A stretch of DNA of 64,000 nucleotides, taken from NCBI GenBank assembly GCA_012862575.1, contig BLSF01000032.1, positions 124,001 to 188,000 of the forward strand. The letters run 5' to 3'. Positions 8,948-58,546 of the stretch are shown here, piece after piece; the stretch's first letter is position 1; each line of letters starts with the position of its first letter. Below the pieces are notes generated by a model. That model did not search any database. It was not told where the DNA came from and saw nothing but the letters and a program-made list of their open reading frames with translations. Made by a program: the position numbers and the translations under genes. Source of the stretch: Parietichytrium sp. I65-24A. Lineage: Eukaryota; Sar; Bigyra; Thraustochytrida; Thraustochytriidae.

Positions 8948-10009
8948 TCAACCCGTGTTGGCCTGACTTTTCTCGCCGCTGGAGATGTGTGAGTCGTGCG
9001 AAAGGCCAGAAGGTTTGACTTTTCGATTGCTATGCTTCTGCCGTTGGATTCTTCGTGCTGAGAACATCCACCTGGTGCGAATGAAGCGTGTGGGGATCCA
9101 CGTGGGTGTTATCATCAACATGGCTATTGAGTTGAGAAGAACATCGAGTATGTATCCACTATACCGGATCCATTGGTGCTGGACCGAGAGAATATCGCTC
9201 TTCCCGAAAATGTCAGCAGCCAAACTGCCAGCAAATTGCACCACAAATGTGGAGAATATTGTCAAAAAACTTAAATACAGGTTCCGCTTGCCAACGAACT
9301 TGTAGTAACCGATCTCGTCGTCCAACTTGTCCGTGGTTGCTTTGTCATCTTGAACACTTTTCGCTGCTGTCAACGTTTTAATTTGGCTCCAGAACGGTAT
9401 GACGAACAATGCCAAGAGGCAGGCGCTCAGGGAGGAGTCCATGAACAGAAATAGCCAGCTCATTTCGCTCACAAGGTTTTGCGCGCAATATCCTTCTACA
9501 AAGTACAGTTCCCCATGAAAGAAGTAAAACGCAAGCATGGATATTACAGGTGCGCCGAATATTGTAGAGAGCCGAAGATATCTATGAAGTTGCTTCATGG
9601 CTGTCTTGTAGACAGACATCGACAGCCTTGCCCTGTTCAGCAATACCATATACGAAGCGAGATTTAAAAAGCCGTACAAGCACGCCGTCCCTTTGCTGGC
9701 GAGCTCACACAATATAGCACCCTCCGAGGTTTTGTACCGCATCCACAACAGAGGAACATTCAGCACTTGCATGAGGAGTCCCATAAGCATCCCGAAACAA
9801 ACCCATCTCGCGATGGCTTCCCCTTTCCGCTTTCTGGCCCTGCTTGAAACAAATGTGGTGATTTCTCTGAGCCTGATGGCGGTCGTGCAAAGCGCAAATG
9901 TAAAGAAGACAAATGCCAACACGTGCAGCACCCTTGCAACGTAAATTGCCACTACTGCTGGCTCTGTGGCAGCTTGCCCACGGAGCAGCCAGTCGGGCTC
10001 GAAGCCCAT
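8948..10009 (-). CDS. 7TM receptor-like protein, divergent family member (copy D)
   Basis: 353 aa, ATG at 10009, no intron seen. Seven hydrophobic segments: about residues 22-45, 68-90, 100-125, 145-165, 185-205, 245-268 and 282-305. It belongs to the same family as the genes at 10477, 53889 and 57425. Shared landmarks are Cys at the start of TM3 (ILCELASKGT), EGYCAQN in the second outer loop, NLYLSFLTIFSTF in TM6 and QWIRYSGYILDVLLNSIA in TM7. The Cys pair is what the TM3-ECL2 disulfide of GPCRs would need. It departs from its relatives: the Leu-Glu-Lys after TM3 is replaced by LNRAR, EGYCSQY reads EGYCAQN, and there is no N-terminal sequon. The C-tail is basic and Ser-rich. Role as a receptor is inferred. 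The next family member lies 467 bp upstream on the same strand. Confidence 0.82.
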   Translation of the reverse strand: MGFEPDWLLRGQAATEPAVVAIYVARVLHVLAFVFFTFALCTTAIRLREITTFVSSRARKRKGEAIARWVCFGMLMGLLMQVLNVPLLWMRYKTSEGAILCELASKGTACLYGFLNLASYMVLLNRARLSMSVYKTAMKQLHRYLRLSTIFGAPVISMLAFYFFHGELYFVEGYCAQNLVSEMSWLFLFMDSSLSACLLALFVIPFWSQIKTLTAAKSVQDDKATTDKLDDEIGYYKFVGKRNLYLSFLTIFSTFVVQFAGSLAADIFGKSDILSVQHQWIRYSGYILDVLLNSIAMLMITPTWIPTRFIRTRWMFSARRIQRQKHSNRKVKPSGLSHDSHISSGEKSQANTG

Positions 10010-10476
10010 GCTCCGCCAATATGTCCGCCGCGCACCCGCTCACCGACCGTGCGCGTTTCAGACCGTGCGCCGGGTCGACATTTACTCCCGCAAGTCGTAA
10101 ACCGCAGCGTCCATGCGTCGGCCATGTTGGGTTGCTGATTTCGTTCACGTGCTATGCAGACACTAAATTGGCGACTACAAGTGCATGTTATTGTTGCAGA
10201 CATTTGGACAAGGACTTCGACTTTGACTCAGAGCTCGTCAGCGCAACGGATTATTGCAGTATAGCGTTTGCTATACTCGTCGGTCAAACCTTCTTCTGGT
10301 GTAAAACTAGTATAACGTGCTTGGTCGAAGGGCTATTGAGTACCTACCTAAGGACAGCTATGGGGAAGCCTTTTGTTGGTCGAGATTAATCACTGGGATT
10401 TCCCCGAGCGCGTTAAATATATAACATGAAGAAAGAATATTATTGTAAATTATGCTGATGCTCGATTCTCCCAACA
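10010..10476. other. Spacer between tandem 7TM genes
   Basis: 467 bp between the start of copy D and the stop of copy C. No gene seen. It should contain the copy C 3' end and the copy D promoter. An AT-rich patch (about 10415-10450) precedes the copy C stop. Confidence 0.6.
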
Positions 10477-11538
10477 TCACTCCGAAGAAGGGTTCACGGA
10501 AGGCTCGCAAGTAACGTGCTTCTCCGAACCCACCGTGTTAGTGTGCGCGGATACGCTCGCAGACCTCTTTTTGGAGACGAAGAGCGTCTCGACCCTCCTG
10601 GGAACCCACACGGAGCTTGTCCACAGGATCGCGGTGAGATTTATTATGACATCGATGATATAACCGGCATAACGAATCCAGTCCATGTACGCGTATTGTA
10701 TCTCCGGTTCAAACATCAAGCTCAATGTGCCTCCTAAAATTTGAAATGCAAAAGTAGATATGATTTGCGTGAGCCCAAGATGTAAATTCCGAAACCCGAG
10801 GCGCTGGAGCCTCTGCATTTCTGAGCGGAGCTTTGGCGTTTGTTCCGCGGAAGTATTCATTTGCCGGATGTGGACACGCAGGGGCCACAAGAACAGCAAC
10901 AAGTAGCCCATGCTCAGCGATGCATCTAGAGCAGTGCCGCACCACACAGTAAGCACAGAAATGTATTGCGAACAATATCCTTCATTGAAGCGCGCATAGC
11001 CGCGGAAGAATGCCAGCGCCCCGATTGATATTAGGGGAGTTCCCACCCACGTGCAAACTTTAATAAGTTGAAACAGACGCATCATCTTGGCATTTGTTTT
11101 GTCAAGCAGCAAACTGCTCTTCTCAAGGAGATAAAGATAATTGGCTAGCATCCCAACGACGTAGAAAAATGCTGTCAATTTCATCGCTATATCGCAGAAG
11201 ACCTCGTTCAATCTCCCCTCTCCGAATCGTCCGTAGAATACACCAAAGTTGCACACCTGAGTCAGCATTGCAACGAAGGCATTCAGCAATAGCAGATACA
11301 ACAGGTCAGTGGACCTGCTCCGCCTTCCTCCTCGAGATTTTTTGCGCTTTGGCTTTCTTTGCTCTAAAATCTTCATTACAATTAATATCGTAATCCCGAA
11401 AAAGTAAAGAAAGGAAAACACCTGCAGAGCCTGTGTGATCTGAAACATCACTTTGTAACTCGTTGGCGCATCCTGGTCGAGAAAAGCAATGTCGCTGAGG
11501 CTGAAGCCCGTTGAGTTGCTCTCCGTGCCGTTCGCCAT
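10477..11538 (-). CDS. 7TM receptor-like protein (copy C)
   Basis: 353 aa, ATG at 11538, single exon. The N-terminus carries two sequons (NGT, NST), fitting an outside N-terminus. Hydrophobic segments lie at about 34-58, 77-101, 113-136, 155-176, 190-217, 258-280 and 298-322. ICL1 is strongly basic (KRKKSRGGRRSRS). Family marks: Cys at TM3 start (VFCDIAMKLT), GMLANYLYLLEK at the inner end of TM3, EGYCSQY in ECL2, NLHLGLTQIISTF in TM6 and DWIRYAGYIIDVIINL in TM7. The third inner loop is short and charged (KLRSEMQRLQRL). The tail is Ser/Thr-rich, as in receptors regulated by phosphorylation. I cannot match it to a named GPCR class. A ligand-sensing receptor role is inferred from topology alone. 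Confidence 0.86.
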   Translation of the reverse strand: MANGTESNSTGFSLSDIAFLDQDAPTSYKVMFQITQALQVFSFLYFFGITILIVMKILEQRKPKRKKSRGGRRSRSTDLLYLLLLNAFVAMLTQVCNFGVFYGRFGEGRLNEVFCDIAMKLTAFFYVVGMLANYLYLLEKSSLLLDKTNAKMMRLFQLIKVCTWVGTPLISIGALAFFRGYARFNEGYCSQYISVLTVWCGTALDASLSMGYLLLFLWPLRVHIRQMNTSAEQTPKLRSEMQRLQRLGFRNLHLGLTQIISTFAFQILGGTLSLMFEPEIQYAYMDWIRYAGYIIDVIINLTAILWTSSVWVPRRVETLFVSKKRSASVSAHTNTVGSEKHVTCEPSVNPSSE

Positions 11539-18996: not shown

Positions 18997-19000
18997 CTTG

Positions 19001-21365: not shown

Positions 21366-22763
21366 ATGCGCCCCAGCGCCTCCCGGTCATTCCGTCCGGA
21401 CAGCCTGCCCTCTGCGGGGCTCCCCGCGGACCCCACAGGCAAAAGCCGGCGCGGACCTGGGACGCATGGGACGCATGGGACGAATGGGACGCGTGTCCCA
21501 CGTGGGACGCGTGGGACACCTGCCAAACTCAGCGGTGCGAGCCGTTTCCCCACGGCAGGTGCGGGCCTGCGGCGAGATGGCGTCCCATTGGCACTTGCAC
21601 AGTTGGCCGGAACGCTGGACGGTCTGGCGCGGGACAGGGTCCTCGACTTCCTGCGGGGACCGTGCGGTAGCTGCGGGGAGGGCTTGCTGCTGGCCGGCGA
21701 AGAGTGCGCGGCGTGCGCGTTCGCCACGTGCGTCTCGTGCCGCGCCAGCGTTAGACTTGGCCCTGGGACCCGTCGATGCGCGTGGTGCGACGGCGCATTG
21801 TGCGCCAGCAGTCCATCGTCTTCAACGTCTCCATTGTCTTCATTGTCTTCATCGTCTCCATCGTCTCCATCGATTCCATCGTCTCCGAACGCCAGTTCCA
21901 GGTTGATGTTCTCCGCGGAAGAGTGCGCGCTGGCGGACGCGATGGGCGTGGCAGGCGAGGACCTGTGCAGGCGGTGCGCGGACTCGGCCAAGGAGCGCTG
22001 CTGCTCGTGCAATACTCGCCAGCTGCGCACGTGTGCGTGCGCAGACTGCGGCGCGCACGTGTGCAGGCAATGCAGGGAGTTTCTCGGTCGCGAGGCTGTG
22101 AGCGCGCTGGCGGTCCTCGCCGGCTCAAGCGACGCGGAGGCGCGGTACGCGTGCCCGCGATGCTTTGATGCGTGGCAAACGTGCAGGTCATGCGAGGCGC
22201 TGGGCAAGTCGCGCGCAGCTGCGATGAACAAAGCGTGCGAGGCCACGACCTGCGCCATGTGCTGCGAGAGGGCATGTCTGTCGTGCTTGCCGCATGGAGA
22301 CGAGGAACGAGATCGACAGGTTGTCGTGTTCCTCCCGTGCACGGCTGCGGCGGGCATGTGCGCCCCAGAGAATCACGATGTGGTCATCGTCTCAGTCCAA
22401 GAGTATCAAGAGAGGCTAAACTCGGCTTTCGAATGTGCGCCTGCCTTTAACGATGACGACGACGATGACGACGATGATGGCGGTGTTGAGGATGACGATG
22501 ATGATGACATTGACGCGGGAGTGCGCGCGAGGCTGAAGAGGTCGGAAGACGATGTGGGAGAGGGTTGTCCTGGTATGGACCTGACTCCTGTATGCGCCGC
22601 GTGTGCTACACTGTTCACGATGTCCTGCATGCGCTGCATGAAGCTGTTTCCTTCAAGCATTGCGGATCGCGTGTTTGTCCAGGAACCGAGCTCTGTTGTG
22701 CCGTCCACATGCGTCCGTGTCTGCATGCGATGCGTGGTCTCAACGGAGCTCCGGCAAACCTAG
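21366..22763 (+). CDS. Cysteine-rich protein of unknown fold (probable multi-zinc protein)
   Basis: 465 aa from ATG 21366. I count 41 cysteines, mostly as CxxC pairs in clusters. Cluster 1 (about residues 99-140) includes CGSC, CAAC, CVSC and CAWC. Cluster 2 (about 190-240) includes CRRC, CCSC, CACADC and CRQC. Cluster 3 (about 262-315) includes CPRC, CRSC, CAMCC and CLSC. Cluster 4 lies near the C-terminus (CAAC, CMRC, CMRC). Spacing suggests serial zinc-binding knuckles, but it fits no RING, PHD, FYVE, B-box or LIM pattern I know. Between clusters sit a Ser/Pro tract (SPSS repeats, near residue 160) and an Asp run (near 365-385). The first 50 residues come from GGGACGCAT-type repeats, so the true start may be later. 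Codon use is GC-rich. Function unknown. Confidence 0.72.
   Translation: MRPSASRSFRPDSLPSAGLPADPTGKSRRGPGTHGTHGTNGTRVPRGTRGTPAKLSGASRFPTAGAGLRRDGVPLALAQLAGTLDGLARDRVLDFLRGPCGSCGEGLLLAGEECAACAFATCVSCRASVRLGPGTRRCAWCDGALCASSPSSSTSPLSSLSSSSPSSPSIPSSPNASSRLMFSAEECALADAMGVAGEDLCRRCADSAKERCCSCNTRQLRTCACADCGAHVCRQCREFLGREAVSALAVLAGSSDAEARYACPRCFDAWQTCRSCEALGKSRAAAMNKACEATTCAMCCERACLSCLPHGDEERDRQVVVFLPCTAAAGMCAPENHDVVIVSVQEYQERLNSAFECAPAFNDDDDDDDDDGGVEDDDDDDIDAGVRARLKRSEDDVGEGCPGMDLTPVCAACATLFTMSCMRCMKLFPSSIADRVFVQEPSSVVPSTCVRVCMRCVVSTELRQT
21459..21522. repeat. GGGACGCAT-type tandem and palindromic repeat
   Basis: Degenerate 9-nt units (GGGACGCAT, GGGACGAAT, GGGACGCGT) followed by a palindromic stretch around TCCCACGTGGGA. 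It is in frame with the Cys-rich gene and codes Gly-Thr-His-type repeats. Confidence 0.8.
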
Positions 22764-27585: not shown

Positions 27586-27595
27586 CTTGCCCTCC

Positions 27596-32735: not shown

Positions 32736-33647
32736 ATGAGCTTTTTTGGCACTGCGCTGCCCGCGCCAACAAGCTCTGCCTGCGGCGGAGACCTGCGCGA
32801 GCATTGGCAGGAGCCAGAAGGTCTAGATGATTCGGATTCGGTGTGCTCGACAGAAACTTGGGATGAGCTCTCGCAGCCAGCTGAGACGAGCCAGTACAAC
32901 GTTGTGCGCCAGCGCTCGACAATGCAAAGGATCGGTGGCTCAGAGTCTTTCACTATGTCATCCAGAGGCCAAAATGAACAAAGTCAAACTTTGTACACAG
33001 CTAAGCGTAGCAGACTTGAGCAGCAGATAGATATCTTTTCTTCGAGCGGCGACGAGAAGACGCGCGTCGCGACTTTGCAGGTACAAAAGGACAAACGCTT
33101 CCTATATTACGACCAAGACGGCACCGCGGTCGTCATTTCGTACAAAACCACGCCACTATTGCATTCTGTAAAAGGTCTGTTGCCGCGGTCCTTGTCGGTT
33201 GTTCTCAAATGTGACGAGGAGTTGGATGCGGATGAACGTCGCGAAAAAAGCAAAATGTCGCTTGAAGACGCTCGGCGAAACGCAACTGCGTTTCAAAAAC
33301 ACTGGACGGCTCATGTGGAGTGGGTCGAAAGGAAAAGGGCTCTTAAGAGCCAGGGAGTAAATTTGAAGACTCAGCTAAACTCTCCTGCTCGACTCTCTTT
33401 TCTCAATTTGGTAAACAAACCACCTCGACTATTGCGCAAGAGCTTCCGGCTTGACTTTCAGGGCAGGAACATCCTCCCAAGCGTGAAAAATTTCCAACTT
33501 ATCAGCCCCAGCGTATCGGCGGACGGGGCGCCGATAATATTGCAGTTCGGCAAGACTTCGTCAAATTCTTACACACTAGATCTCTCTCCCAGCTGCCTTC
33601 ATGCTCGCACGGCGTTCGCCATCACCCTGACCCAGTTCCTCCTCTAG
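32736..33647 (+). CDS. Tubby-like protein (C-terminal Tubby domain)
   Basis: 303 aa, ATG at 32736, no intron. Residues 1-105 are polar and Ser-rich. The C-terminal part matches the last blocks of the Tubby domain: LVNKPPR at 225-231, FRLDFQGR at 237-244, SVKNFQLI at 249-256, PIILQFGK at 266-273, YTLDL at 279-283 and TAFAITLTQF at 292-301. In Tubby proteins these read NKPP, LNFxGRV, SVKNFQLV, LQFGK, FTMDY and FAIALSSF. The N-terminal half of the beta-barrel (about 110-220) is weakly conserved. The usual KLACE tail is absent, since the protein stops just after the central helix. Tubby domains bind PI(4,5)P2, and TULP proteins deliver membrane cargo to cilia with IFT-A. Lipid-binding Lys/Arg cannot be assigned with confidence in this diverged copy. 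Confidence 0.85.
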   Translation: MSFFGTALPAPTSSACGGDLREHWQEPEGLDDSDSVCSTETWDELSQPAETSQYNVVRQRSTMQRIGGSESFTMSSRGQNEQSQTLYTAKRSRLEQQIDIFSSSGDEKTRVATLQVQKDKRFLYYDQDGTAVVISYKTTPLLHSVKGLLPRSLSVVLKCDEELDADERREKSKMSLEDARRNATAFQKHWTAHVEWVERKRALKSQGVNLKTQLNSPARLSFLNLVNKPPRLLRKSFRLDFQGRNILPSVKNFQLISPSVSADGAPIILQFGKTSSNSYTLDLSPSCLHARTAFAITLTQFLL

Positions 33648-36854: not shown

Positions 36855-37964
36855 TTAAGCACTGCACTGTGTCCCAGGGTTCGCGCACAAGCAACTTATT
36901 GGTATTTGTGACTTTGGTCCACTAGTTGGGCTCTCCAGCCTCACTTGATCGAGTCCAACGCTCTCGTACCAACCGGTGAAGTCTCCGAGGATCTTGATGG
37001 AAGAAAGATTGTCCAGCATCTCCACAAACTCGCAGGCGGTGGGCTTGGTCCAATCAGAAAGCGTGTTTTTTGGATCTTTCAACCAGTTGGAGGACTGCGA
37101 GAGTTGCAGCTTGAACCTGTTCGGGGATCCAGAGAAGGAGATATCCTTCACCTTGTATGCGAATCGCATGCCTTTGCCAGTAGCGCATGTGCTGCACTCA
37201 AGGACAACAAAGTCCATATTCATGTTTCTCTTGTTTACGTTGAAATCCCCGCTGAACGCACCAAGAGAAAATGACAAAATCCCGCCGTAAGCAGAAGCTT
37301 GGAAGCCGAGAAACTTGCTGGGAGCCTGAAAGTACCACAGTGCCTTGTCGTGGCCGTCAGAGGCGATATCTAGTCGGTTCTCCGTGGTGTAGATAAAGTA
37401 GTTGAGCAGCTTGTGGGATGACTTCTCGTGGGTCGGTTCCAAAGCAGTGGCCCCATTTCCCACAATTTTCCAACCTTCAGTGCCGTCGCTAAAGTCAGAT
37501 GTGACCATGACATTCTCCACAGAATCATCAGGAACGAGCGTCACAACACCTTGTGCGGATATCGCCTTCCCATCGCTCACAGAGTACTTAAAGGTGGCCC
37601 ATTTACCTTTTGCATAGTAAGCAGGAGCGCGATAAATTAGCTTGTGCTTGGATCGCTTCGGAATCATGTGGTTGCTTGCAAGGATTCTTCCCGAAGCAGC
37701 TGTCTTTGGCAACCGCCCGTGGGTTGCATAGACTTGACTCAAATCAAAGAGCTCGCCCGCGCCCGGGAGACTCGTGATTGTGGTCACCAGCTTGTCTCCA
37801 TCCGAGTCATAGCCTCTGAGTTCGATTTCCACTTCTTGGTTCGCTCCAACTCGGTACACCAAATGAGGAGCCTTTGGCTTAATATTTTCTGCATTCGCAC
37901 ACGACGCCAGCAGGCAAGACGCCAAGAGCACCGCGCTGCCCAACCTGCGAGTGAACCCCACCAT
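36855..37964 (-). CDS. Secreted protein with a laminin-B (domain IV)-like module
   Basis: 369 aa, ATG at 37964. Residues 1-25 form a signal peptide (RRLGSAVLLASCLLASCANA) with a likely cut before ENIK. Residues about 30-145 look like a cadherin/Ig-like beta domain: VEIELRGYDSDGDKL, and WATFKYSVSDGKAISAQGVV resembles bacterial cadherin-like repeats. Residues about 155-345 match the laminin IV A (LamB) pattern: SDGTEGWKIVGNG, ALWYFQAPSKFLGFQASAYGG, ILSFSLGAFSG and a terminal WYESVGLDQVRLES strand. The C-terminus has three Cys. No membrane segment or GPI signal is obvious, so it is probably secreted or in the wall. LamB modules occur in animal laminins and perlecan and also in some protists. The partner is unknown. 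Confidence 0.78.
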   Translation of the reverse strand: MVGFTRRLGSAVLLASCLLASCANAENIKPKAPHLVYRVGANQEVEIELRGYDSDGDKLVTTITSLPGAGELFDLSQVYATHGRLPKTAASGRILASNHMIPKRSKHKLIYRAPAYYAKGKWATFKYSVSDGKAISAQGVVTLVPDDSVENVMVTSDFSDGTEGWKIVGNGATALEPTHEKSSHKLLNYFIYTTENRLDIASDGHDKALWYFQAPSKFLGFQASAYGGILSFSLGAFSGDFNVNKRNMNMDFVVLECSTCATGKGMRFAYKVKDISFSGSPNRFKLQLSQSSNWLKDPKNTLSDWTKPTACEFVEMLDNLSSIKILGDFTGWYESVGLDQVRLESPTSGPKSQIPISCLCANPGTQCSA

Positions 37965-41352: not shown

Positions 41353-44300
41353 TCAGGTGGAGTCCTTTGAGAGTGCGCGGATATACGTCGCCAAAAGAGG
41401 ATCTTCCAGACTGTCCGCATAAGCTCGGCAGAGCAGGGGGTACGAACAGCGAAAGTCGCTTGGAGTTGACATGCTCCAGTCCAGCTGTTGAAGCCGCCGC
41501 ATGAACGTAAATGCACAATCATTCAGAACGACCACAGAGGCCTGTTTGCCAAAAGCAGCTTTGGAACCCCTCTCCACCAAACAGGAAACATGCTCCCGTG
41601 TCTCCGAATACGTCAATTGCCCATCTGAGGTTTTGTTAATGGTGTTGAAAATCTCGTCCATAACTTTCAGCGAAGATGCAGGAAGCAACATTTCCACCCT
41701 CTCCAACCCCAGATTCTGCGCAGCATGGGGGGAACCTGTGACACCGGGCTGCGAGGGCGTCACCGACGCCATAGATTTGACAAGTGGTTTTGTGGATCCA
41801 TCGAGGTGAGCGATCCTCCATGACCGGTCCGTGTGTGTGTATGAGATGAGCAGAACCGCAAAACACAGATGCTCCAGCAAAAAGGTAGCAGTTACTCGAA
41901 CTATTGGAGTTAAGGACATACAATTTTTGTCCCGCATCATCAATGTTTCTTCATGCACACCGTCCAAAGAATGCAGCCCGCACAAAGTATTGTTATCGAA
42001 ATTAAAAATTGACGCCGCCGCGTCCAAGCCACCATTGGCAACACAAAATTCAGCGCAGATAACGAGGATCGCAAGGATGAACGTTAAATAGACACAATTG
42101 AGCCATTCTCCCGGTTCAGCGGAAGCACCCCTCGGTATGCTTCTCTTACAAGCAAACAGCACACGGTAGCATGTCCCGCGATACGAAAACAGGAGGCGGA
42201 TAGAGGCAGCAAGAGGCAAGAGGCCCCATGCGCTGGTAAACATGGAGAGAAACCCGAGCTGCATCATGAGGACGAGATATTCGTCTCCCTCGTCATATTT
42301 GGGTAAGACGGATTGCGTCAGTATATCGGTTGCGTCGTACTTGTTTTGATCAGGCGTCTCGGAGAACAGGTGCAACGAGCCCCTGGCGGACGGAATGCAG
42401 CCAATGCTACTCTCAACCTCCTTGAAGAGACTCTTGGGCAAATTTTCTTCCGACGAAGCGCCGACTTCTTCACGGGGAGTTCCGCGCATTTCAGCTTGCG
42501 TAACAGTCAAAAGCTCCTCTGCGCTACACTTGAGCTCCCTGCGTTTGATTTGCGCTTTCAGCACTAGCTTTGCGAGTTGCGAAGGCACAAAAGTGTCGAT
42601 TAGTGTATTGATCAAGGCAGTGGCGACCATCGGCGTGACAAAGGCCTCGTCCAAAAATATCTTGTTCGGGCGGTAGCCCCAAGGTGGCACGATCCAGCTA
42701 AAGCCGGAGTCCAGCAGAACGCGCTGCACCTGCTCGCCAGCTTCGAACGGGACGTAAAGAAACGTGACGGTCAAATACCAATAGAACATGTTGACCCAAA
42801 TAAAGAAGAACTGCTTGCGGATGAGATGTTTGCTGAACTGCTCAAGGAACTGGTGACTCTCGTGATTCGTTAGCACTTTGGTGAGCTTCTTAAAGATCGC
42901 CGTTTGAAGCACGTCAAGAATTAACCCCATTACGATTCCTTGGATGAGGATGTAAACCCAACGATCGGTTCCCACAACCCCCAAAGAGCTTGCAAAGCAA
43001 GTACTCCACATTGAGCACGATGTCGGAATGTTGTCTAGATTTAGTGGGTAGTTTCTCGCAGTTATCACGTACTCTTGAAAGCACTTTGGCGGCCACTCGA
43101 CTTCTGGCACAGAAGCCATTTCGCGCGTCCCATTCCCGATCCCACTCTCGAGAAAAAATTGGCAGCACTCACAGGTAGGGCTCATTTTGCCGTACACGTA
43201 CCATTGAGTAAAAAACAGGCTCACGGGAGCCAGGATGAGAATATTGAGCACGACAATCACAGCGGACGCCAAATTCACTACCCATCTCTTCCGCATGCGA
43301 TCTCGGCGCGACAGGTTTCTCTCAAGCCGAGTCAGATTTGGATTCTCAATTTTTGTCTCTGGCGGAAGAGAGTGCGCACGGGTCCATGCATTAGTTAGCC
43401 TTGCGTACCGCAATTTCCAGGCTGCTGCAAACGAAGGGCCCCAAATGGCACAAATGTACGCTCCAATTAGACTGGTCGTAAATAAATACAGGTTCCAGTT
43501 TGAGAATCTCACAAACAAATAATTACACGTGGAGAGGACAGTTAGCCACAAAAGCCACTTGCGATAATGGAGCAAGTACTCCACATAAACCACAGTCCGG
43601 TCGCCAAACTGTAAACGAAGTTCTTCTGTATGTACATTCTCCGGGGATTGAACAACCCAGTTGTTCCAAAAGTGCTTGAGTACCATCGAAAGTGCTCGGC
43701 GATCGCGAGGCGGCCACCATTTTTTATCACACTTTAGTTGATGCATGAACGAGGAGTTCCAAACCTCATCTTGCAGGGGAAATATGTCCTTGATCACACT
43801 TTCGATGGGTGTGGACCGCGATCCACCACTAAGAAGGTCAAATACGCTGAGCATTCCATCTGAGGATATGTTTATACTATTCAAGGCGCGCTGTATGACT
43901 CGAAGGGTCAAGTCAACCTCCTCTGAAGCCGATAAATCTTGTGCTTTAGTGGCCACAGGCTTTGGGCTGATAGAGAGCAATGGAGAAAGCGGGCTTGCTC
44001 CTGCCATTCGGTTCGCTGCTATTACCGTCTCACGTTGCAAGAGGCTAGCGGAAGCACATCGATGTATTCTCACCTCTTGCTTCGAGGCGCTCTCAGGTGC
44101 GTCTTCATCCCCTGTCTGTACAATCTCCACTCCTCGAGTGTCAACGACGAGAACTATACGATCAGCTGTTTGCGGGGTGCTTCTCAAGATGCCGACTTTC
44201 AGCCCTTCACTGATCAGGGCACGAACGATCTTCCTGTGTATCGAAAACCTGCTGTCTTCGGGCTCGTGCGAGGGCATGGGAAACTGTGCCTCTGGCCTCG

Positions 44301-44370
44301 CATTCAGCACGATCGCAGTGCAATACGCCAACCCATCCACCTGAATATGTTTCTGCTTCAATTCCCTCAT
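41353..44370 (-). CDS. Anoctamin (TMEM16) channel or scramblase with EF-hand-like loops
   Basis: 1005 aa, ATG at 44370, single exon. The cytosolic N-domain (1-240) is followed by about ten membrane segments: TM1 near KWLLWLTVLSTCNYLFV (251-267) and TM2 in SLIGAYICAIWG. A Cys-rich outer loop follows TM3 (CECCQFF). EQFSKHLIRKQFFFIWVNMFYWYLTVTFLYVPF and DEYLVLMMQLGFLSMFTSAWGLLPLAA are the anoctamin core, with acidic residues where the family binds Ca2+. Anoctamins are Ca-activated chloride channels or lipid scramblases of plasma or ER membrane. Two EF-hand-like loops lie outside the core: N167-D178 (NISSDGMLSVFD) and N912-E923 (NKTSDGQLTYSE). I cannot say from sequence whether it is a channel or a scramblase. 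Confidence 0.93.
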   Translation of the reverse strand: MRELKQKHIQVDGLAYCTAIVLNARPEAQFPMPSHEPEDSRFSIHRKIVRALISEGLKVGILRSTPQTADRIVLVVDTRGVEIVQTGDEDAPESASKQEVRIHRCASASLLQRETVIAANRMAGASPLSPLLSISPKPVATKAQDLSASEEVDLTLRVIQRALNSINISSDGMLSVFDLLSGGSRSTPIESVIKDIFPLQDEVWNSSFMHQLKCDKKWWPPRDRRALSMVLKHFWNNWVVQSPENVHTEELRLQFGDRTVVYVEYLLHYRKWLLWLTVLSTCNYLFVRFSNWNLYLFTTSLIGAYICAIWGPSFAAAWKLRYARLTNAWTRAHSLPPETKIENPNLTRLERNLSRRDRMRKRWVVNLASAVIVVLNILILAPVSLFFTQWYVYGKMSPTCECCQFFLESGIGNGTREMASVPEVEWPPKCFQEYVITARNYPLNLDNIPTSCSMWSTCFASSLGVVGTDRWVYILIQGIVMGLILDVLQTAIFKKLTKVLTNHESHQFLEQFSKHLIRKQFFFIWVNMFYWYLTVTFLYVPFEAGEQVQRVLLDSGFSWIVPPWGYRPNKIFLDEAFVTPMVATALINTLIDTFVPSQLAKLVLKAQIKRRELKCSAEELLTVTQAEMRGTPREEVGASSEENLPKSLFKEVESSIGCIPSARGSLHLFSETPDQNKYDATDILTQSVLPKYDEGDEYLVLMMQLGFLSMFTSAWGLLPLAASIRLLFSYRGTCYRVLFACKRSIPRGASAEPGEWLNCVYLTFILAILVICAEFCVANGGLDAAASIFNFDNNTLCGLHSLDGVHEETLMMRDKNCMSLTPIVRVTATFLLEHLCFAVLLISYTHTDRSWRIAHLDGSTKPLVKSMASVTPSQPGVTGSPHAAQNLGLERVEMLLPASSLKVMDEIFNTINKTSDGQLTYSETREHVSCLVERGSKAAFGKQASVVVLNDCAFTFMRRLQQLDWSMSTPSDFRCSYPLLCRAYADSLEDPLLATYIRALSKDST

Positions 44371-45150: not shown

Positions 45151-46578
45151 TCAAAAAAAATATTCATAGGAACTATACGGCATAAGCGGAATCTCGGGAA
45201 CAGCGATGCGAAAAGGCGGTCCATCGGGATTAGAAAGAGAACCAGGAACAAACTCTAGCTCGCCAGAGATGGTGCCCGAATATTGCGTGCATCCATCGCC
45301 ACAGCAGCTTTGGTAAACAAAATCCCCTTTCTCCACAGCCCATGGCATGTTTACAGCGTTGAAGGGAACGTGGCCGGGCCCGTCCAAGTCCAACAGAAGA
45401 GGGAAAAAGCCTATGACTCCCTCGCCACTAACCCTCTCGACGGGATTATCTCCGATATTAATTACCCAGTGTCGACGCATGAGCTGGCAGGTCTGAAAGC
45501 CTCTAGTGGAAGCGGATTCGTAGCCTTCTTCTTCCGGGGCAACAAATCCAATTCGTATTGAGTACGCCCACATGTTTCGAACGGAAGTATGCACAACTAG
45601 GCTAGATGCAGAAACTCGAACTCCGCGGGTAGTTCGACTAACAAAGGCAGGGGGAGCGCGCGGGAACAAGCCGATGGCAGGCAGCCTGGAGAACGAAGGC
45701 TGCATGCTTTGATAATACTTTGTTGAGACTCGTCGAGCGTACTCGGCAAACCAATCTATGAATGCAAACTGCGTATCTTCGAGTTGGCCCATGTTTACAG
45801 CTGGGCGCAGCTCAAGTCCGGCGAGCGACTCTGTCAGATAGACCATCCCTGAGGTGGGATGCACAAGGAACGCCTTGAACCAAGACGAGTCTCGAAGATC
45901 TTTTCCAACCATATAGTGCGACATGAACGGGTGGACATCGACGAACGCTACAGTCCGCCGCATATCGTACACCTCGTAAAACCCAAACAAGTCCATCTTC
46001 CGCGTATTTTTTTGGCCAGTGAAGAAGGCATAAACCGCAAAGATGGCAAGCAACGTCCGCTCGTCCGCGCCTTCGATCCGCTCGATCTCATCGAATCTCC
46101 TCAGACCGCCGCCCAGCTGCAGCTTCTTCAGCACGCTGCCCCCCTCTGGAATTGCCTTTCCCAGCGCCCCGAGCAATTCCGCCCACGCCCTTGCCGCTTT
46201 CACCAAAGTGGCACCGCAGTACTTGAACATCCGCATCGGGATGCCCAGTCTCCTGTACGCCTCCCGCAGCTGCATGTACACCACCTTCGGATCTTGCTCC
46301 TGCACCGCCTCCAGCTCATCTCGCCCTCCGTCCCTGTGCTCTGCCGCGCTCCACATCCTCAACACCGAGCCTTTGTCCTCGTCCTCGGCCAGCACTTGTC
46401 CCAAGGTGCCAACCACGCCGGCATCGTTCATGAGGCACCTTCGCCACACGCGCGGCCCCAGCGCTCGTACGCCATCCCTCCCTGCGCGGCACGAGCACGA
46501 CAGCCGCCCCACGTCGCTGCCGCACAGCCACGAACACAGCTCCAAGCACAGCTCGCTCGTGCGCAGCAAACGCTCCAT
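45151..46578 (-). CDS. FBXO3-like protein (F-box, SUKH/SMI1-KNR4-like, ApaG domain)
   Basis: 475 aa, ATG at 46578, single exon. The F-box-like segment is at about 6-50 (LCLELCSWLCGSDVGRLSCSCR). A central SUKH-type region is at about 150-315 (LRRFDEIERIEGADERTLLAIFAVYAFFTGQ, GFYEVYDMRRTVAFV, WFAEYARRV). The C-terminal ApaG/DUF525 beta-sandwich is at about 335-460 (VSASSLVVHTSVRNMWAYSIRIGF, QLMRRHWVINIGD, GEGVIGFFPLL, MWG-type GDFVYQSCCG). This order is that of FBXO3, an SCF substrate receptor. CAND1 (13243) would regulate cullin complexes that use such receptors, a plausible functional link within the window. The target is unknown. A Leu-rich repeat tract on this strand lies upstream and is not part of the protein. 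Confidence 0.9.
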   Translation of the reverse strand: MERLLRTSELCLELCSWLCGSDVGRLSCSCRAGRDGVRALGPRVWRRCLMNDAGVVGTLGQVLAEDEDKGSVLRMWSAAEHRDGGRDELEAVQEQDPKVVYMQLREAYRRLGIPMRMFKYCGATLVKAARAWAELLGALGKAIPEGGSVLKKLQLGGGLRRFDEIERIEGADERTLLAIFAVYAFFTGQKNTRKMDLFGFYEVYDMRRTVAFVDVHPFMSHYMVGKDLRDSSWFKAFLVHPTSGMVYLTESLAGLELRPAVNMGQLEDTQFAFIDWFAEYARRVSTKYYQSMQPSFSRLPAIGLFPRAPPAFVSRTTRGVRVSASSLVVHTSVRNMWAYSIRIGFVAPEEEGYESASTRGFQTCQLMRRHWVINIGDNPVERVSGEGVIGFFPLLLDLDGPGHVPFNAVNMPWAVEKGDFVYQSCCGDGCTQYSGTISGELEFVPGSLSNPDGPPFRIAVPEIPLMPYSSYEYFF

Positions 46579-47033: not shown

Positions 47034-48554
47034 CTATTTGGAGGGGGTTGACTTGGCGTTCGAGGAGATGATGTTGGTTGGTGTCTCTTCTTTGTTTTGT
47101 GCAGGCTGTACCGCAGCGCCTGTCGATGGGACGATGGGGACGCACGCCACGGCCTGTGCAAGAATAGACACGATTCTTGAGAAATGAAATAGGAAGGCTG
47201 CCAGAACATATTGAGCAGGGCTGGAGGTGACTCTGACTGAAAGTGCAAGAGAGACTGTGGCGATGAAATCTGCAACAACAGACACCCGAACGCAACGAAT
47301 CAGACGCAAGCGCAAAGCTCTTGAACGTCGGCGCAGTTCGCTATTTGCGTCCAGGATCTTGTCTGTCATTTTCAGCTTAGAAACGAGATTGTTAGTCATG
47401 CGCCATTGGAATATGCTTATGCTTGTCTGAAAAGTGATCATGATCAAAGCCGCACTCCAAAAGAGAATTTTCAAGCTACTTCCGTAGTTTGCTGAAGCAC
47501 TGGCATACACAACATCGAGGCCGATCATCGACACCACCCCGAGAAGTAGCAAGCGCTGCCCCCTTACAAATGAGTTTCCGCGAACGCCATCGCTTGCAAC
47601 ATGGCGAAGTACAATCGCAACAAGAAAATTGAGCGCAATGCTGGTTCCGAACCAGTTGGGCTGCAAAATCATATTGACCTCGTAAGCAAACGTCTCACCC
47701 ATAAAGTGAGTACCAAAGGGTGTCAAGCATGCAAGGCTTGAAGCTACCAAAAAGTTGACCGCCAGAATGAAGTGGTGAGGGGTGTATTTCATGCCGGCAC
47801 CGGGCTTTCGATAATACTTCGCTCTCATTCTGAACGCCACTACTGAGATAATAGCAACAGTCGCATAGCCTGGCGGAATAAATCCGCGGAACACCACGAG
47901 GACGCCAATGCTTTCAAAAGCTGCTATAGCTCGGTTTGGGTCCGTAATAATAGTTGTGTTTGCACCGCCACTTTCAAGGAGTTCAGTGAATCTTGATGAT
48001 AACGGAGTGTCGTGCAAATCCCGCCAGGCGCGAGCGTCCAATAATGCGCAATCGTTGACTTCGGGGTGCTCGATCTTGAAGGTGCTGAACTTGTGGCCGT
48101 CATGTTGATTGGCATATATTCCCGGCGTAGAGCCGTCAGATTCCAAACGTAGTATGAGCGAAGACAGTTGGCACCATTGATATAACCAAACATGGTCTTT
48201 GTATCCACCAAAGAATCCCTCGCAGACGAGATTGTACTTAGCGCCGGGCACTGCAAGTGCAAATCCACTGTATTTGTTTCTCATCTCCGCTAGATCCTCA
48301 TCTGTTCTATCCGCCGAGCAGAACACTGTGTAGTCTGCCTCCTCAAGCTCTTTTACCCAGACATTTGACAGATTCACGGTCTGCAGTGTTGCAAATCGCA
48401 GTTTCGGCACTGCCTCGAATAAAAGCTCCCACTCGCCGGTGTCTGGGTCAAGGAATGATATGCTCGCGTCAGTGCCAATCACATTGCCCGCTACCAAGAC
48501 AACCAAGGTGACCAGCCACGCCGTCCTCGCCTGCACAGGCGTCATCCTCGACAT
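47034..48554 (-). CDS. Seven-helix membrane protein with a large N-terminal ectodomain
   Basis: 506 aa from ATG 48554 (MSRMTPVQ). An upstream in-frame GTG is not used. Residues 1-33 form a signal peptide. Residues about 34-205 form an ectodomain with several Cys (YNLVCEGFFGGYKDHVWLYQWCQLS) and sequons (NLS, NTT). Seven hydrophobic segments follow: about 207-232 (GVLVVFRGFIPPGYATVAIIS), 247-268 (HHFILAVNFLVASSLACL), 290-312, 325-345, 348-372, 408-425 and 434-460. The topology is that of a receptor with a ligand-binding N-terminal domain. It does not share the GYCSQY and DWIRY motifs of the other 7TM genes, so it is a different family. The tail is short and polar. I do not recognise a named class. 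Confidence 0.75.
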   Translation of the reverse strand: MSRMTPVQARTAWLVTLVVLVAGNVIGTDASISFLDPDTGEWELLFEAVPKLRFATLQTVNLSNVWVKELEEADYTVFCSADRTDEDLAEMRNKYSGFALAVPGAKYNLVCEGFFGGYKDHVWLYQWCQLSSLILRLESDGSTPGIYANQHDGHKFSTFKIEHPEVNDCALLDARAWRDLHDTPLSSRFTELLESGGANTTIITDPNRAIAAFESIGVLVVFRGFIPPGYATVAIISVVAFRMRAKYYRKPGAGMKYTPHHFILAVNFLVASSLACLTPFGTHFMGETFAYEVNMILQPNWFGTSIALNFLVAIVLRHVASDGVRGNSFVRGQRLLLLGVVSMIGLDVVYASASANYGSSLKILFWSAALIMITFQTSISIFQWRMTNNLVSKLKMTDKILDANSELRRRSRALRLRLIRCVRVSVVADFIATVSLALSVRVTSSPAQYVLAAFLFHFSRIVSILAQAVACVPIVPSTGAAVQPAQNKEETPTNIISSNAKSTPSK

Positions 48555-49088: not shown

Positions 49089-50953
49089 TTACTTCTTTGA
49101 GGCCTTGTAGCCGTGCGCATAAGATGGGTTGTGCACGTAGCCAACTGAAGCGACCATGTCGTCTGCTTCCTTCGGCCCGCGAGTTCCAAACTTGTACGGA
49201 ATTGGCTTGACTTTCTTTGACTCCAGCTCCTTTAAGAGCGGGGTTACAATCTCCCAAGCAGCGATCAGCTCATCGTCACGAACAAAGGTCGCCTGCTTTC
49301 CGCGCAAAACATCGAGAATCAACCGGGTGTAGGCGTCGTAAATTTTCGCGTCTTCGTAGCGGTGCTGGTATGAGAGGTCAAGTTCGCTCTGAGTGATTGT
49401 GGTGGTCAGACCTGGAGCTTTGACGTTGGTCTTCATGTAGATTCTGCACAACGTTGTCATAAAAAACTCCCGTCAGCGCGCGATTCGTGCAAGGTTTTCT
49501 TCATTGTACAATGATGTCTTTAACTTACGCTTCGTTTGGCTGGAGGCGGATAACGAGCTCATTTCGAGGGATGTCCTGATTGTCAAACATTTTACTTGAG
49601 CCAGGGGGTGGCTTGAGCTGTAGCCGAACCTCGCAACGACGCTGGTCAAGCGCTTTGCCGGCTTTCATGATGAATGGCACGCCTTCCCAGCGCTTGTTGT
49701 GAATATGCATAACCACACAGCAATACGTGGGCACCACCGAGTCCTTCGGTACGGTTTCGTCTTCAAGGTATCCAGGCTCACCATTGGCGCCTACGTACTG
49801 GCCAAGAACGCAGCTGTGAGTGCAGCGGTTAGTATTGTGCGCTCACAGCTTTACGCGTCAATTTTGCAATTCTGAACTTACTTTTCCAGCTTCCAGGGCT
49901 CTACACAGTTGAGAACCTTGACCTTCTCATCGCGAACGTAGTTGCTGTAGTTTTCGCCGGACACCCGTACAGGCGCCTCCATCGCGACGATGCTGAGGAC
50001 CTGCATGAGATGATTCTGGAGGATGTCGCGGATAATCCCCGACTTATCGAAGTATCCACCACGTCCTTGCGTACCGATGTCTTCTTTAAAAGAGATGGTC
50101 ACACTGCTGATCGTGTCCCGATTCCAGATAGGCTCTAGAAAAGAGTTACCGAATCGCAAAGTGATGAGGTTTTGAACCATCTCCTTTCCGAGGTAATGAT
50201 CAATGCGGTAGAGGTAGTCCTCAGGAAAGAGATCCCCCAGATCTTTAGCGAGCGACTTTGCTGACGCTGTGTCATGGCCAAAAGGCTTCTCCACAATTAG
50301 ACGGTTGAACCCCTTGCTTGTCATGCCCCCGTCGTGCACAGCCCTGGCCATGTCCAAGAAAGTAGTTGGCGGTAGAGCAAAGTAGAAGACGCGATTCTCC
50401 AAAGCAGAGGCAGAGACGCCGTGAAGCTTCTTGAGCTCGTCGCTAACTTTACCAACATCCTTCGCCGAGTCATATTGCCCGCTACGATAATAGCAAAGAT
50501 CCAGGAAACGCTCGACCTGTTCCTCGCTACCGTATTTTAGCAGCCATGGCTTGAGCTTGTCGCGAAAATCAACGTCGTTCATTTTCGTGCGGGCATACCC
50601 TACCACCAGAGTCTTTGTGCCAATGGCATCGTTGATGAAGAGTTCCAGAAGAGCAGGGCTGTTCATTTTTTGATCGATTGTTTAGTATCGCGGGACATAC
50701 TTGCAAAGATTCCATCGCTTTCGACAAATACTTACTAGGTCTTCTTTTTGGCAAGGTCTCCAGAAGCTCCGCACACTATATGATTCACGAGTGAAAAGCA
50801 ATACAATGCGTCAGTACACTGAGACGTTGCTCGCCCCAAAAAAAACGCACTTCAAGGCCCAACCCGGCACTTACCCAAGATGGTGAGAGGCTCCTCAATC
50901 CATGGCTCCTCGCTCGCCTCGAAGATCGGGGTGTGCGACTTTTTGCTCGACAT
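49089..50953 (-). CDS. Glucose-6-phosphate 1-dehydrogenase
   Basis: Five exons: 50953-50875, 50775-50736, 50658-49882, 49813-49529 and 49443-49089, giving 511 aa. Introns are 99, 77, 68 and 85 nt, all GTAAGT donors, with phases agreeing at every join. Joins restore LTILVCGASGDLAKKKTYPALLELF (NADP-binding GASGDLA), then CVLGQYVG and QPNEAIYMK, matching the family. The catalytic RIDHYLGKE and FDKSGIIRDILQNHLMQ are intact, and the length fits cytosolic G6PD (515 aa in human). It makes 6-phosphogluconolactone and NADPH at the entry of the oxidative pentose phosphate pathway. There is no obvious targeting peptide. The 40-nt second exon is unusually short. Confidence 0.98.
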
Positions 50954-52990: not shown

Positions 52991-53888
52991 GGAGCTTGGG
53001 GCCACAAAGTATAACTGGTGTTCTTGGGATTGTTTCGCAAGGACAGCAATTCATGGCCATCACCACTTGGCAACGTAAATGTGTCCGGTGAGTCGAAAGT
53101 CTGCCAGTGGGGCAAGAAAAAAATTCAGGTCGGTCACTGGGACGTCCGATTTTACTTTTAAGCTCTACTTCAGATATCGGTTTTCCGATGAGGTACCACG
53201 GTACTGAGGACCAACTTTGGGCAGCTTTTGTATTGTTCTCGCAGTGGCCACTTGACTACCCAATCACAACTGATCACACTGTTGATGGGTAACGATGATG
53301 GAAATTTTCGCCATCTTCCGCTCCAAACTTCCCGTGGCATAACTACTAAATGCAAGGTCTCTATTAATAAAAGATTAAAAGAAAACGTTCAATGCTCAGC
53401 ATCAGAAACCCAGCCCCACACAACAAGAAGAGTTGAAGAAACTATCGCGTTCCTCATACTCCAGACTTAGGGCTAAAAAAATTTGATGAGATCTTGAATC
53501 ACCCGACAATTCTGTAACTTTTCGTTGGATTGCTCGACTCAAGAAACGGTCCGGGGCATACCTTATCATCGCCCCATCGAATGCCTCCTCTCTACCTCGC
53601 AGAATTCAGACAGTCTTAGAAAATGTTTGTTTGGGGATCTCCGAGTCTGTTGGGACATTAAACGGATCATCAGAGCACACTCTTTGGCTTCACCCCGTCA
53701 TCTTTCTCACACGCCGCCTGACCTTTCGCCATAATGACAGCCTTACGAATCTCCTCTTGGCATGTCTTTCACGCCAAGGTAATAGGCTTCGAAAGCGCAG
53801 CGTGCAGACCCAAAATGATGAGGACGTCGGACGGAACGAGACTGTAGAGCAGGAGTGTTTGCGAACGGAATAAAGTAGCGACTTCAGA

Positions 53889-54935
53889 ATGGGGAACTTC
53901 ACGGATATTCAGTTTCTTGATGTCAGCGCGCCGCAAGCATTCGTGACTTCGGTGAACTGGACCAAGGTCGTGTACGGAACAGCAACATCATACTTTGTTG
54001 TGATGTTTGTCCTTCTTGTAATACGTGCAAAACAGCTAAAGTTTAGTCGGTCCACTGGCCTGCGCAAGAAGAAAGGAAAGAACGAAAAGCTTATCTATCT
54101 CATGTTGGCAAACGCAACCGCATCTGTGCTTACCATGGTTTGCAACACGCTGATCCTCTTTGGAAGATACGGGGATGGCGAAGGCCATATGTCTCCACAG
54201 GTTTGCAACTACATGATCAAGTCCACATGTATTTTTTATGTATTGGGGATGTGGGCAAACTACATATTTTTGCTCGAGAAATGCAAGCTCCTCCTGGACA
54301 AAAACAAGAAACTCATGTACTATCTCTTCCGCCTCACAGAATTGTCAACCTACTTTGGGCCACCGAGCCTCGGAATTTTCGGGTTTATTGTGTTTCGCGG
54401 GTTCCATCGATTTCAAGAAGGATATTGCTCCCAATACGTTGAGTGGGTCGTTGTCTGGGCATTTCTCTTCATCAGCACAAGCTTGAGTGTTTGTTTCCTC
54501 ATACTTTTCATGTGGCCTTTACGGGAGCATATACACGCCATGAAATCCTCCCACGTTGACCATAGCGGCCATCAGAAAGAGCAGATGATGCGGCTCCGTA
54601 GAGTTGGTGAGAAAAATTTACGTTTGGGCGTGATACAAATTCTCTCAACATTCACTTCTCTGCTTTTGGGAAGCATTCTAGACACTGCTTTTGAACGCAC
54701 CGTTGAAAACACTTATCAAGACTGGATACGGTACTCGGCATATATGGTAGACATGGTCATCAACCTCGTCGCCCTTTCGATGTCCAGCAATAAATGGATC
54801 CCAGTTGGAATCCCCGGATCTCGCTTCCTTTTGGGCTGCTTTTCAGATCGGATCAAGGCATCTGCTTCAGGAACCAAGATCGCTCCCGGAACGGCCACTG
54901 GATCAGCGTCTTCGGCAGGGGCCAGCCAAGGTTGA
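53889..54935 (+). CDS. 7TM receptor-like protein (copy A)
   Basis: 348 aa, ATG at 53889, single exon. Two N-terminal sequons (NFT, NWT) fit an outside N-terminus. Seven hydrophobic segments: about 28-46, 70-92, 108-130, 150-170, 185-205, 245-265 and 275-298. Family marks: VCNYMIKST with the TM3 Cys, GMWANYIFLLEK, EGYCSQY in ECL2, NLRLGVIQILSTF in TM6 and DWIRYSAYMVDMVINLVAL in TM7, then KWIPVGIPG. ICL1 is basic (GLRKKKGKNEK) and ICL3 charged. The C-tail is short, Ser/Ala/Gly-rich. It is closest by eye to copy B (57425), its tandem neighbour on the same strand. Receptor function and coupling are inferred. Confidence 0.87.
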   Translation: MGNFTDIQFLDVSAPQAFVTSVNWTKVVYGTATSYFVVMFVLLVIRAKQLKFSRSTGLRKKKGKNEKLIYLMLANATASVLTMVCNTLILFGRYGDGEGHMSPQVCNYMIKSTCIFYVLGMWANYIFLLEKCKLLLDKNKKLMYYLFRLTELSTYFGPPSLGIFGFIVFRGFHRFQEGYCSQYVEWVVVWAFLFISTSLSVCFLILFMWPLREHIHAMKSSHVDHSGHQKEQMMRLRRVGEKNLRLGVIQILSTFTSLLLGSILDTAFERTVENTYQDWIRYSAYMVDMVINLVALSMSSNKWIPVGIPGSRFLLGCFSDRIKASASGTKIAPGTATGSASSAGASQG

Positions 54936-57424: not shown

Positions 57425-58546
57425 ATGGCTGACATCTATGTGCAGATGGAATCGGAGGGCTTCAACAGCTACTCTGGTCAAGACGCCCCTTACTCGTTCG
57501 TATTCTTCTTCAACTTCACAAAAGTCTGCCATGGGTTTGCCCTGATATTCTTCTGCGTGGTCTTCTTTCTTTTGTGCCTCCGAGTCAAACAGATTCGCAA
57601 GGAGAAGAGGAGAGCACAATCCAAGAAGCGCGACAGAATCATCTATTTGATGCTCGCCAACGTGTTCACGTCGGTAGTGACGCAATGGTGCAACACACTT
57701 ATTCTCTACGGTCGCTTTGGAACAGACAAACTCGACGTGACGTGGTGCAGCTACATGATGAAAAGTACGGCGTTGTGGTACATTCTTGGGATGTGGACAA
57801 ATTACCTGTTTTTGGTTGAAAAGTGCGAACTTTTGCTCGAGAAAAACAACAAATGGATGTCATATCTTTTTCATGCGACACGCTTGTCCTCTTATTTCGG
57901 TCCCCCAGCCTTGGCAACCTTTGCATTTTACATCTTCAAGGGGTTTCCGCGTTTTAAAGAAGGCTATTGCTCGCAATATCTTTCTTGGGAGGTAGTGTGG
58001 ATATTTCTCAGTGTTGACTCAAGCTTGAGCTTGTGCTTCTTGACTCTCTTTCTTTGGCCACTAAGGAACCACATTCATAGAATGAAGTCCACCGGCGGAG
58101 ATACAAACGCCAAGCTCAAGTCAGAGATGCGACGGCTGCGCCACGTTGGCGAGAAGAATTTGAAACTGGGATTGACTCAGATTCTCTCAACCTTTGGGTT
58201 CCTCATGCTCGGCGCCGTGATGAACTCATTTCTTAAACCATCTATAGAGTACGCTTACAATGATTGGGTCCGCTACGCTGCATACATATTTGATGCTGTC
58301 ATCAATCTGATTGCTCTTCTGATGACGAGCCACCAATGGGTCCCGGTGGGGTATCCTGGGATGTCATATATTGCTGCAAAGCTTAGTGACAAATCTTCTG
58401 TTGCCGTCACAAAGGTGGGCCCCACCGAGGTCACGGTCAAGTCGACCACCGCCGGTTTCAGGTCTGGCGTTCAGAGTTCTGCGTTGGTAAAGTCTACCGT
58501 TTCGTCAGAGAAGGGCTCCAAAGAGATGCAGAGTGGGTCTGAATAG
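57425..58546 (+). CDS. 7TM receptor-like protein (copy B)
   Basis: 373 aa from ATG 57425 (MADIYVQMESEGF). The frame is open upstream from a GTG that I do not use. One sequon (NFT) lies at the edge of TM1. Seven hydrophobic segments at about 31-52, 75-98, 108-130, 150-172, 186-208, 240-262 and 275-298. Family marks: WCSYMMKST (TM3 Cys), GMWTNYLFLVEK, EGYCSQY, NLKLGLTQILSTF, DWVRYAAYIFDAVINLIAL and QWVPVGYPG. The tail (about 55 residues) is Ser/Thr/Val-rich with many possible phosphorylation sites. It is the best-conserved partner of copy A. Confidence 0.88.
   Translation: MADIYVQMESEGFNSYSGQDAPYSFVFFFNFTKVCHGFALIFFCVVFFLLCLRVKQIRKEKRRAQSKKRDRIIYLMLANVFTSVVTQWCNTLILYGRFGTDKLDVTWCSYMMKSTALWYILGMWTNYLFLVEKCELLLEKNNKWMSYLFHATRLSSYFGPPALATFAFYIFKGFPRFKEGYCSQYLSWEVVWIFLSVDSSLSLCFLTLFLWPLRNHIHRMKSTGGDTNAKLKSEMRRLRHVGEKNLKLGLTQILSTFGFLMLGAVMNSFLKPSIEYAYNDWVRYAAYIFDAVINLIALLMTSHQWVPVGYPGMSYIAAKLSDKSSVAVTKVGPTEVTVKSTTAGFRSGVQSSALVKSTVSSEKGSKEMQSGSE

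Follow-up and report, generated by a model that had tools for sequence, protein, structure and literature searches.

Profile libraries are weighted towards animals, and as a result the receptors of other eukaryotes are poorly catalogued. In the available text of a 2025 survey of 23 choanoflagellate species, 18 families of G-protein-coupled receptors (GPCRs) are listed, six of which (RSF, Hi-GOLD, GPCR-TKL/K and GPRch1-3) belong to none of the characterised ones; RSF and GPRch3 are also found in, for example, alveolates and amoebozoans (PMC12716839). Among stramenopiles, and as far as the accessible parts of the two reports go, diatom GPCRs are class C-like (PMC3727952), and thraustochytrid GPCRs were reported under IPR000337, IPR002455 and IPR017978 (PMC6050695). 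Here we describe four genes, called A to D, in 64,000 nucleotides of the thraustochytrid Parietichytrium sp. I65-24A (contig BLSF01000032.1, positions 124,001 to 188,000; the whole stretch is called the window below). They probably encode an orphan GPCR family with rhodopsin-like architecture.

The four proteins resemble the peptide and chemokine branch of class A (NTSR1, CXCR2, APJ, C3aR and the opioid receptors) in their seven helices, in the cysteines at the start of transmembrane helix (TM) 3 and in extracellular loop (ECL) 2, in a predicted ECL2 hairpin and short helix 8, and in an acidic-basic pair 25 residues past the TM3 cysteine. Unlike class A, they show no detectable sequence similarity to it and no DRY, NPxxY or TM6 CWxP motif, and they have invariants of their own, such as G159 and P161 in TM4 (residue numbers are those of member D unless stated). 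Like the diatom and thraustochytrid receptors, they would be stramenopile GPCRs; unlike them, they match no Pfam receptor family, and their N-termini of 26-36 amino acids are too short for a ligand-binding domain of class C. We take the three IPR entries to be class C entries. Class C was rejected for the present proteins, which have neither a 7tm_3 match nor an ectodomain.

Four related genes in two tandem pairs

All four genes are uninterrupted open reading frames (ORFs) of 348-373 amino acids, found where a first-pass annotation, made from the letters alone, had placed four related copies. BLASTP agreed with that proposal: homology was found in all six pairs, with E values of 5e-127 to 1.0e-36 and 28-51% identity over 304-352 residues. 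The genes form two tandem pairs, A and B on the minus strand and C and D on the plus strand, with about 42 kb between the pairs. In a codon alignment, C and D were 51.6% identical, B was 36.8-40.6% identical to C and D, and A only 26.8-29.5% identical to the other three. B is therefore nearer to C and D than to A, which adjoins it. Synonymous sites were saturated (synonymous difference, pS, 0.72-0.80) and non-synonymous sites were not (pN 0.34-0.54), meaning that, on this alignment, the copies are old genes under selection. A fifth copy is absent from the window, where all other tblastn matches had E values of at least 0.32. Judging from these comparisons, the four ORFs form one genuine family.

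Predicted topology

At the cut-off used, the hydropathy profiles of A, B and C had seven peaks each; that of D had six, as TM4 escaped detection. To count charges, loop boundaries were taken from the helices of the structure model of D (model 1, see below). Basic residues numbered 7-10 in intracellular loop (ICL) 1, 3-6 in ICL2, 7-9 in ICL3 and 5-11 in the tail, and 1-2 in the N-terminus, 1-2 in ECL1, 0-3 in ECL2 and 0-1 in ECL3. By the established positive-inside rule, the N-terminus is predicted to lie outside and the basic side in the cytoplasm. The outside loops span 14-18 amino acids, fewer than ICL1 (20-23) and ICL3 (34-40). ICL2 of D has no net charge (3 basic, 3 acidic residues) and ICL3 of A almost none (7 and 6). 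In these sequences it is therefore chiefly ICL1 and the tail that bear the rule out.

Glycosylation sequons had been proposed outside the membrane in three members. B (N3 and N8), C (N3 and N23) and D (N30) do carry them before TM1, and A has none, but for D N30 and C N23 the hydrophobic core of TM1 is 4 residues away, so that by position only the two of B and N3 of C are convincing. Serine and threonine make up 23-30% of the tails (20/66 residues in D, 11/43 in C, 12/40 in B, 11/47 in A), compared to 13-14% elsewhere in each protein.

Conserved residues

The four-member alignment contains 51 invariant columns, starting methionine counted. Cysteine occupies only two of them, one where TM3 starts (C108) and one within ECL2 (C182), and both of the corresponding first-pass motifs, the TM3 cysteine and EGYC(S/A)Q, are present in 4/4 members. 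Two further motifs stood in part. NLxLxxxQIxSTF in TM6 holds in three members, A having T for Q; in TM7, W(I/V)RYxxY is found in all four, but the aspartate proposed to precede it is there in three, A having Q.

Five charged residues are invariant (R97, K113, E179, R283 and D290), three of them basic. Each is situated either in an outside loop or in the outward half of a helix, with D290 near the middle. Between positions 20 and 309, invariant residues were 10/61 in outside loops, 15/74 in outward helix halves, 16/73 in inward halves and 9/82 in inside loops. This means that, in the alignment, the one-sidedness belongs to charge and not to conservation overall.

Class A receptors have, as a rule, no gap in TM3 between the disulfide cysteine and DRY. 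The distance from this cysteine to the DRY arginine is 25 residues, both in the AT1R sequence and in the class A consensus. In our family, position Cys+25 is K in three members and R in the fourth, and position Cys+24 is E, E, E and N. The alignment has 334 gap-free columns. In 7 of these every member has a basic residue, and of the 7 only Cys+25 comes directly after a column acidic in at least three of the four. The absence of DRY, as first reported, is literally true, but an acidic-basic pair (EKC, EKC, EKS) occupies the exact DRY register in three members, with N-R (NRA) in A; E/DRY proper is not found. By the same count, the invariant T115 and Y119 fall at Cys+7 and Cys+11, which we take to be the pocket positions 3.32 and 3.36 of class A numbering.

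Predicted structures

Two AlphaFold2 models were built, both with the four-row alignment: model 1 with D as query (pLDDT, the per-residue confidence, 61; pTM, the global one, 0.57) and model 2 with the core of B (pLDDT 75.4, pTM 0.74). Both have seven long helices, the number that the first-pass annotation expected. Model 1 adds a helix at 311-321; model 2 has helices at 11-46, 60-87, 97-129, 135-162, 180-214, 220-259, 265-292 and 299-305 (B core numbering). The last one in each model is a candidate helix 8 of low confidence (pLDDT below 50 in model 1, block means of 73 and 54 in model 2). In model 2, ECL2 forms a beta hairpin (strands 164-168 and 173-177), C100 comes fourth in TM3, and C174 sits in the second strand. 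A second cysteine within an ECL2 hairpin is usual in many class A receptors.

Compared with the PDB by Foldseek, model 2 gave 1301 matches, 227 of them with E values of 0.001 or less and the best at 9.6e-06. Among the best 50 of these 1301, 49 were named class A receptors and one was titled only 'a peptide receptor complex', at 10-16% identity. Model 1 gave 1088 matches, none with an E value of 0.001 or less. The best 50 of them were GPCRs of classes A, B, D, F and T, an adhesion receptor and GPRC5D, with one row titled only 'SV1-Gs complex'. Class labels here are our assumption from receptor names, and the few bare titles were presumed to be GPCRs likewise.

We also searched a library of viral models (BFVD). 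Of the best 50 rows, 12 were named GPCRs (8-13% identity), three of them in the top five, and two matches had E values of 0.001 or less; several further matches are presumably known viral 7TM proteins. The predicted fold is similar to that of giant-virus, poxvirus and herpesvirus 7TM receptors. The family differs from them by that low identity, and the scans of IMG/VR found no related viral DNA.

These matches also bear on whether the four are 7TM proteins of another kind, namely a transporter, a channel, a lipid enzyme or a trafficking protein. Invariant charges inside helices would suit a transport path too, and G-protein coupling is here a prediction. However, no transporter or enzyme was found among the best 50 PDB fold matches of either model, and in the viral library a hemolysin-III protein came only at rank 31, with unrelated proteins starting at rank 30 and mostly placed after 38. 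The weak Pfam matches were under cut-off and, where coverage was shown, 34-65 residues long. We consider such a non-receptor function improbable. Within receptors, an opsin was rejected: no TM7 row of the four contains the retinal lysine.

Searches for relatives

Neither the full-length nor the core proteins matched a Pfam receptor model in any member at a cut-off of E 10, where the HMMER filters lose most matches above about 0.1; this includes 7tm_1, the class A model. A family profile run against 177,635 PDB sequences found no GPCR and seven matches (E 0.22-1.7; the best, ferroportin, over about 70 positions), which we rejected as noise. The same set holds 950 sequences that match the class A consensus at E values of 0.001 or less, and the best 60 of these were class A receptors or fusions. 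The profile check called for by the first-pass annotation thus returned no strong match to a named family. Four Pfam matches were discarded as well: DUF2269, Cadherin_C_2 and Bap31, each in one member, under the curated cut-offs and 34, 35 and 65 residues long, and CNNM (E 0.29), also in one member only. With hhalign, the probability against the class A consensus was 0.2 on a scale of 0-100, a weak test as the template is a single sequence; an unrelated anoctamin scored similarly. DRY, NPxxY, PKxY and the class F pattern were found in none of the four proteins by motif search, in line with the earlier reading, which had seen no DRY or NPxxY and no signature of class B, C or F.

No relatives were found in IMG/VR (profile and single-protein scans) or in 84,980 prokaryote genomes of GTDB (profile scan), each profile scan consisting of two peptide patterns that distant relatives could escape; tblastn upheld none of the pattern matches obtained (7, 1 and 14 stretches). 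The literature searched contained no description of the family, most subscription papers lying outside its scope. 'Unclassified' here means outside Pfam and the PDB, not outside all knowledge, and the comparison covers no eukaryotic proteomes.

The family might already have been described as an orphan GPCR family (RSF, GPRch2, GPRch3 or the THH1/TOM1 group), or sit unnamed in public proteomes. Several families were named in 2025 which, in the available text of the survey, resemble ours in having a 7TM domain alone and standing outside named families (RSF, GPRch2, GPRch3), two of them being also found beyond choanoflagellates (PMC12716839). Pfam, however, returned no receptor family. RSF membership was rejected by motif, as NxLQxxMNxL was not found in the four members, and the extra helix that RSF has between TM6 and TM7 is lacking in model 2. 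GPRch2, going by its description, is set apart by its unusually large ICL3 (34-40 amino acids here). We regard it as rather unlikely that the family is one of these or sits unnamed in public proteomes.

Weighing the receptor assignment

A GPCR fold is supported by the predicted topology, the cysteines, the DRY register and the models of two members, so that the layout first proposed (seven helices, N-terminus outside, a TM3-ECL2 cysteine pair) stands as a prediction. Several points weigh against it. No similarity to GPCRs was seen at the sequence level, whether in Pfam, in the PDB or against the class A consensus. In addition to the missing NPxxY in TM7, TM6 lacks CWxP in all four; a relaxed pattern matched once, at TWIP of A (position 303), after TM7. 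An aspartate of TM2 is found at the cytoplasmic end in D and B only and not in C and A, the position equivalent to D2.50 (bovine D83) being approximate. The pair at the DRY register was spotted by eye before the register was counted, in a single four-sequence alignment, and is thus supporting evidence and not a blind test. In model 1, ECL2 and everything after residue 303 have pLDDT below 50. TM-scores by query were modest among the best 50 matches of each model, 0.31-0.50 for model 1 and 0.39-0.58 for model 2, the latter with a root mean square deviation of 6-9 Å. The two models are not independent, as the same four sequences stand behind both. AlphaFold2 training took in many GPCR structures, and a 7TM query may therefore be pulled towards their fold. 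Finally, no gene for a heterotrimeric G protein was recognised among the 24 window proteins scanned against Pfam.

A GPCR assignment leaves the class open, and overlaps with the family being true class A (rhodopsin family) that diverged beyond profile reach. That possibility, which we hold only tentatively, draws on the class A receptors among the best 50 of 1301 fold matches, on the ECL2 hairpin and helix 8 predicted in model 2, on the pair in exact DRY register, and on rhodopsin-family receptors with partly conserved motifs outside animals, reported in the available text of the survey (PMC12716839). Against it are the silence of 7tm_1, the hhalign result and the missing NPxxY and TM6 CWxP. 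Moreover, choanoflagellate rhodopsins reached Foldseek E values of 1e-12 to 1e-14 with animal opsins in the same text (PMC12716839), versus 1e-5 here with another predictor and library.

Equally tentative is a separate class beyond A-F, as suggested in the first-pass annotation. It would be restricted to one protist lineage, would have kept or re-evolved the rhodopsin-like blueprint (an ECL2 hairpin fixed to TM3, an acidic-basic switch in the DRY register and helix 8) with entirely different motifs in TM4, TM6 and TM7, and would receive related anionic ligands in an outward pocket of invariant R, K, E, W and Y residues. Given the DRY-register pair and the class A fold matches, extreme divergence from rhodopsin-like receptors appears as credible as a new class. 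The class A features seen are the TM3 and ECL2 cysteines, the low-confidence helix 8 and the fold; those lacking are 7tm_1, DRY, CWxP and NPxxY, and for this reason we do not file the family as class A, even if its mode of action is most likely that of a class A receptor.

Proposed mode of action

If the four proteins are GPCRs, an outside ligand would rearrange the helices and engage a G protein at the inner ends of TM3, TM5 and TM6. A disulfide between C108 and C182 would keep the ECL2 hairpin in place above a pocket among the helices. The ligand would bind in this outward pocket, lined by R97, K113, T115, Y119, E179, Q184, W281, R283, Y284 and Y287. Helix movement would then free the E/N-K/R switch, located where TM3 ends on the inside, leading to activation of a heterotrimeric G protein, and the Ser/Thr-rich tail would serve for shut-off. 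The outward invariant charges suggest that the pocket is shared; as there are five of them, three basic, the copies probably bind ligands of a related kind, small molecules or peptide ends that may be anionic. From their sequences and models, the genes look like an uncatalogued set of cell-surface sensors, most likely with a chemosensory role, for example in swimming cells.

Should this hold, a family that has the rhodopsin-like blueprint but none of its sequence motifs would reveal what the GPCR switch cannot do without, and the genes would be candidate receptors for chemical sensing in protists. With six uncharacterised families as a precedent in the available text of the choanoflagellate survey (PMC12716839), a further one is valuable but not shocking.

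Table 1. Positions in the window of the four genes and of their conserved features.
Feature	Positions	Strand	Basis
Member A, 353 aa (amino acids), most divergent copy	8948..10009	-	ORF and translation; codon-alignment identities (27-30% to others)
Member B, 353 aa, core is query of the better structure model	10477..11538	-	ORF, BLASTP, model 2
Member C, 348 aa	53889..54935	+	ORF, BLASTP
Member D, 373 aa, query of first structure model	57425..58546	+	ORF, BLASTP, model 1
A Cys101, start of TM3	9707..9709	-	alignment
B Cys115, start of TM3	11194..11196	-	alignment
C Cys106, start of TM3	54204..54206	+	alignment
D Cys108, start of TM3, invariant	57746..57748	+	alignment
A N-R-A, DRY register	9629..9637	-	alignment register count
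B E-K-S, DRY register	11116..11124	-	alignment register count
C E-K-C, DRY register	54276..54284	+	alignment register count
D E132-K133-C134, DRY register, Cys+24 to +26	57818..57826	+	alignment register count
A Cys175 in ECL2	9485..9487	-	motif search
B Cys189, second strand of predicted ECL2 hairpin	10972..10974	-	model 2, motif search
C Cys180 in ECL2	54426..54428	+	motif search
D Cys182 in ECL2 EGYCSQ, invariant	57968..57970	+	alignment, motif search
D WVRYAAY, extracellular half of TM7	58265..58285	+	motif search, loop mapping

Neighbouring genes

The surrounding genes of the window are of an ordinary eukaryotic kind, including those for a CAND1-like protein, the small chain of ribonucleotide reductase, an ATP-synt_D/V-ATPase subunit, a WDR90/POC16-like protein and an EF-hand protein kinase. 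The gene content, the scarcity of introns and a GC content of about 50% would fit a thraustochytrid or another labyrinthulomycete. Between the two receptor pairs, 47037-48554 (-) encodes a protein of 506 amino acids with a signal-peptide-like start, a probable ectodomain of about 185 amino acids and seven hydrophobic segments between residues 218 and 472. Pfam gave no match for it, the PDB sequences gave none below E 0.85, and it shows no detectable kinship with the four-member family; its layout is possibly that of a second unclassified 7TM receptor.

A Tubby-family domain (E 2e-19) was found in a protein of 303 amino acids at 32736-33647 (+); in animals, Tubby-like proteins bring GPCRs into cilia. 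The WDR90/POC16-like protein, at 2304-7208 (-), has a CFA20 domain and many WD repeats, and from the role we presume for it suggests a flagellated organism. An anoctamin-family protein (Pfam E 1e-39) lies at 41353-44370 (-), with a sub-threshold C-terminal EF-hand match (E 0.11). At 49878-50666 (-), the ORF of a glucose-6-phosphate dehydrogenase stops part-way through the C-terminal domain, so that this gene, unlike the four receptor genes, probably has an intron. The remaining genes of note encode a protein that looks secreted and has a Laminin B domain (E 2e-12) at 36855-37964 (-), one whose C-terminal portion contains an ApaG domain (E 7e-11) at 45151-46578 (-), and a cysteine-rich protein of 465 amino acids with an aspartate run and no Pfam match at 21366-22763 (+). 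Lastly, an open frame of 1,102 codons from stop to stop, at 60693-63998 (+), reaches the end of the window.

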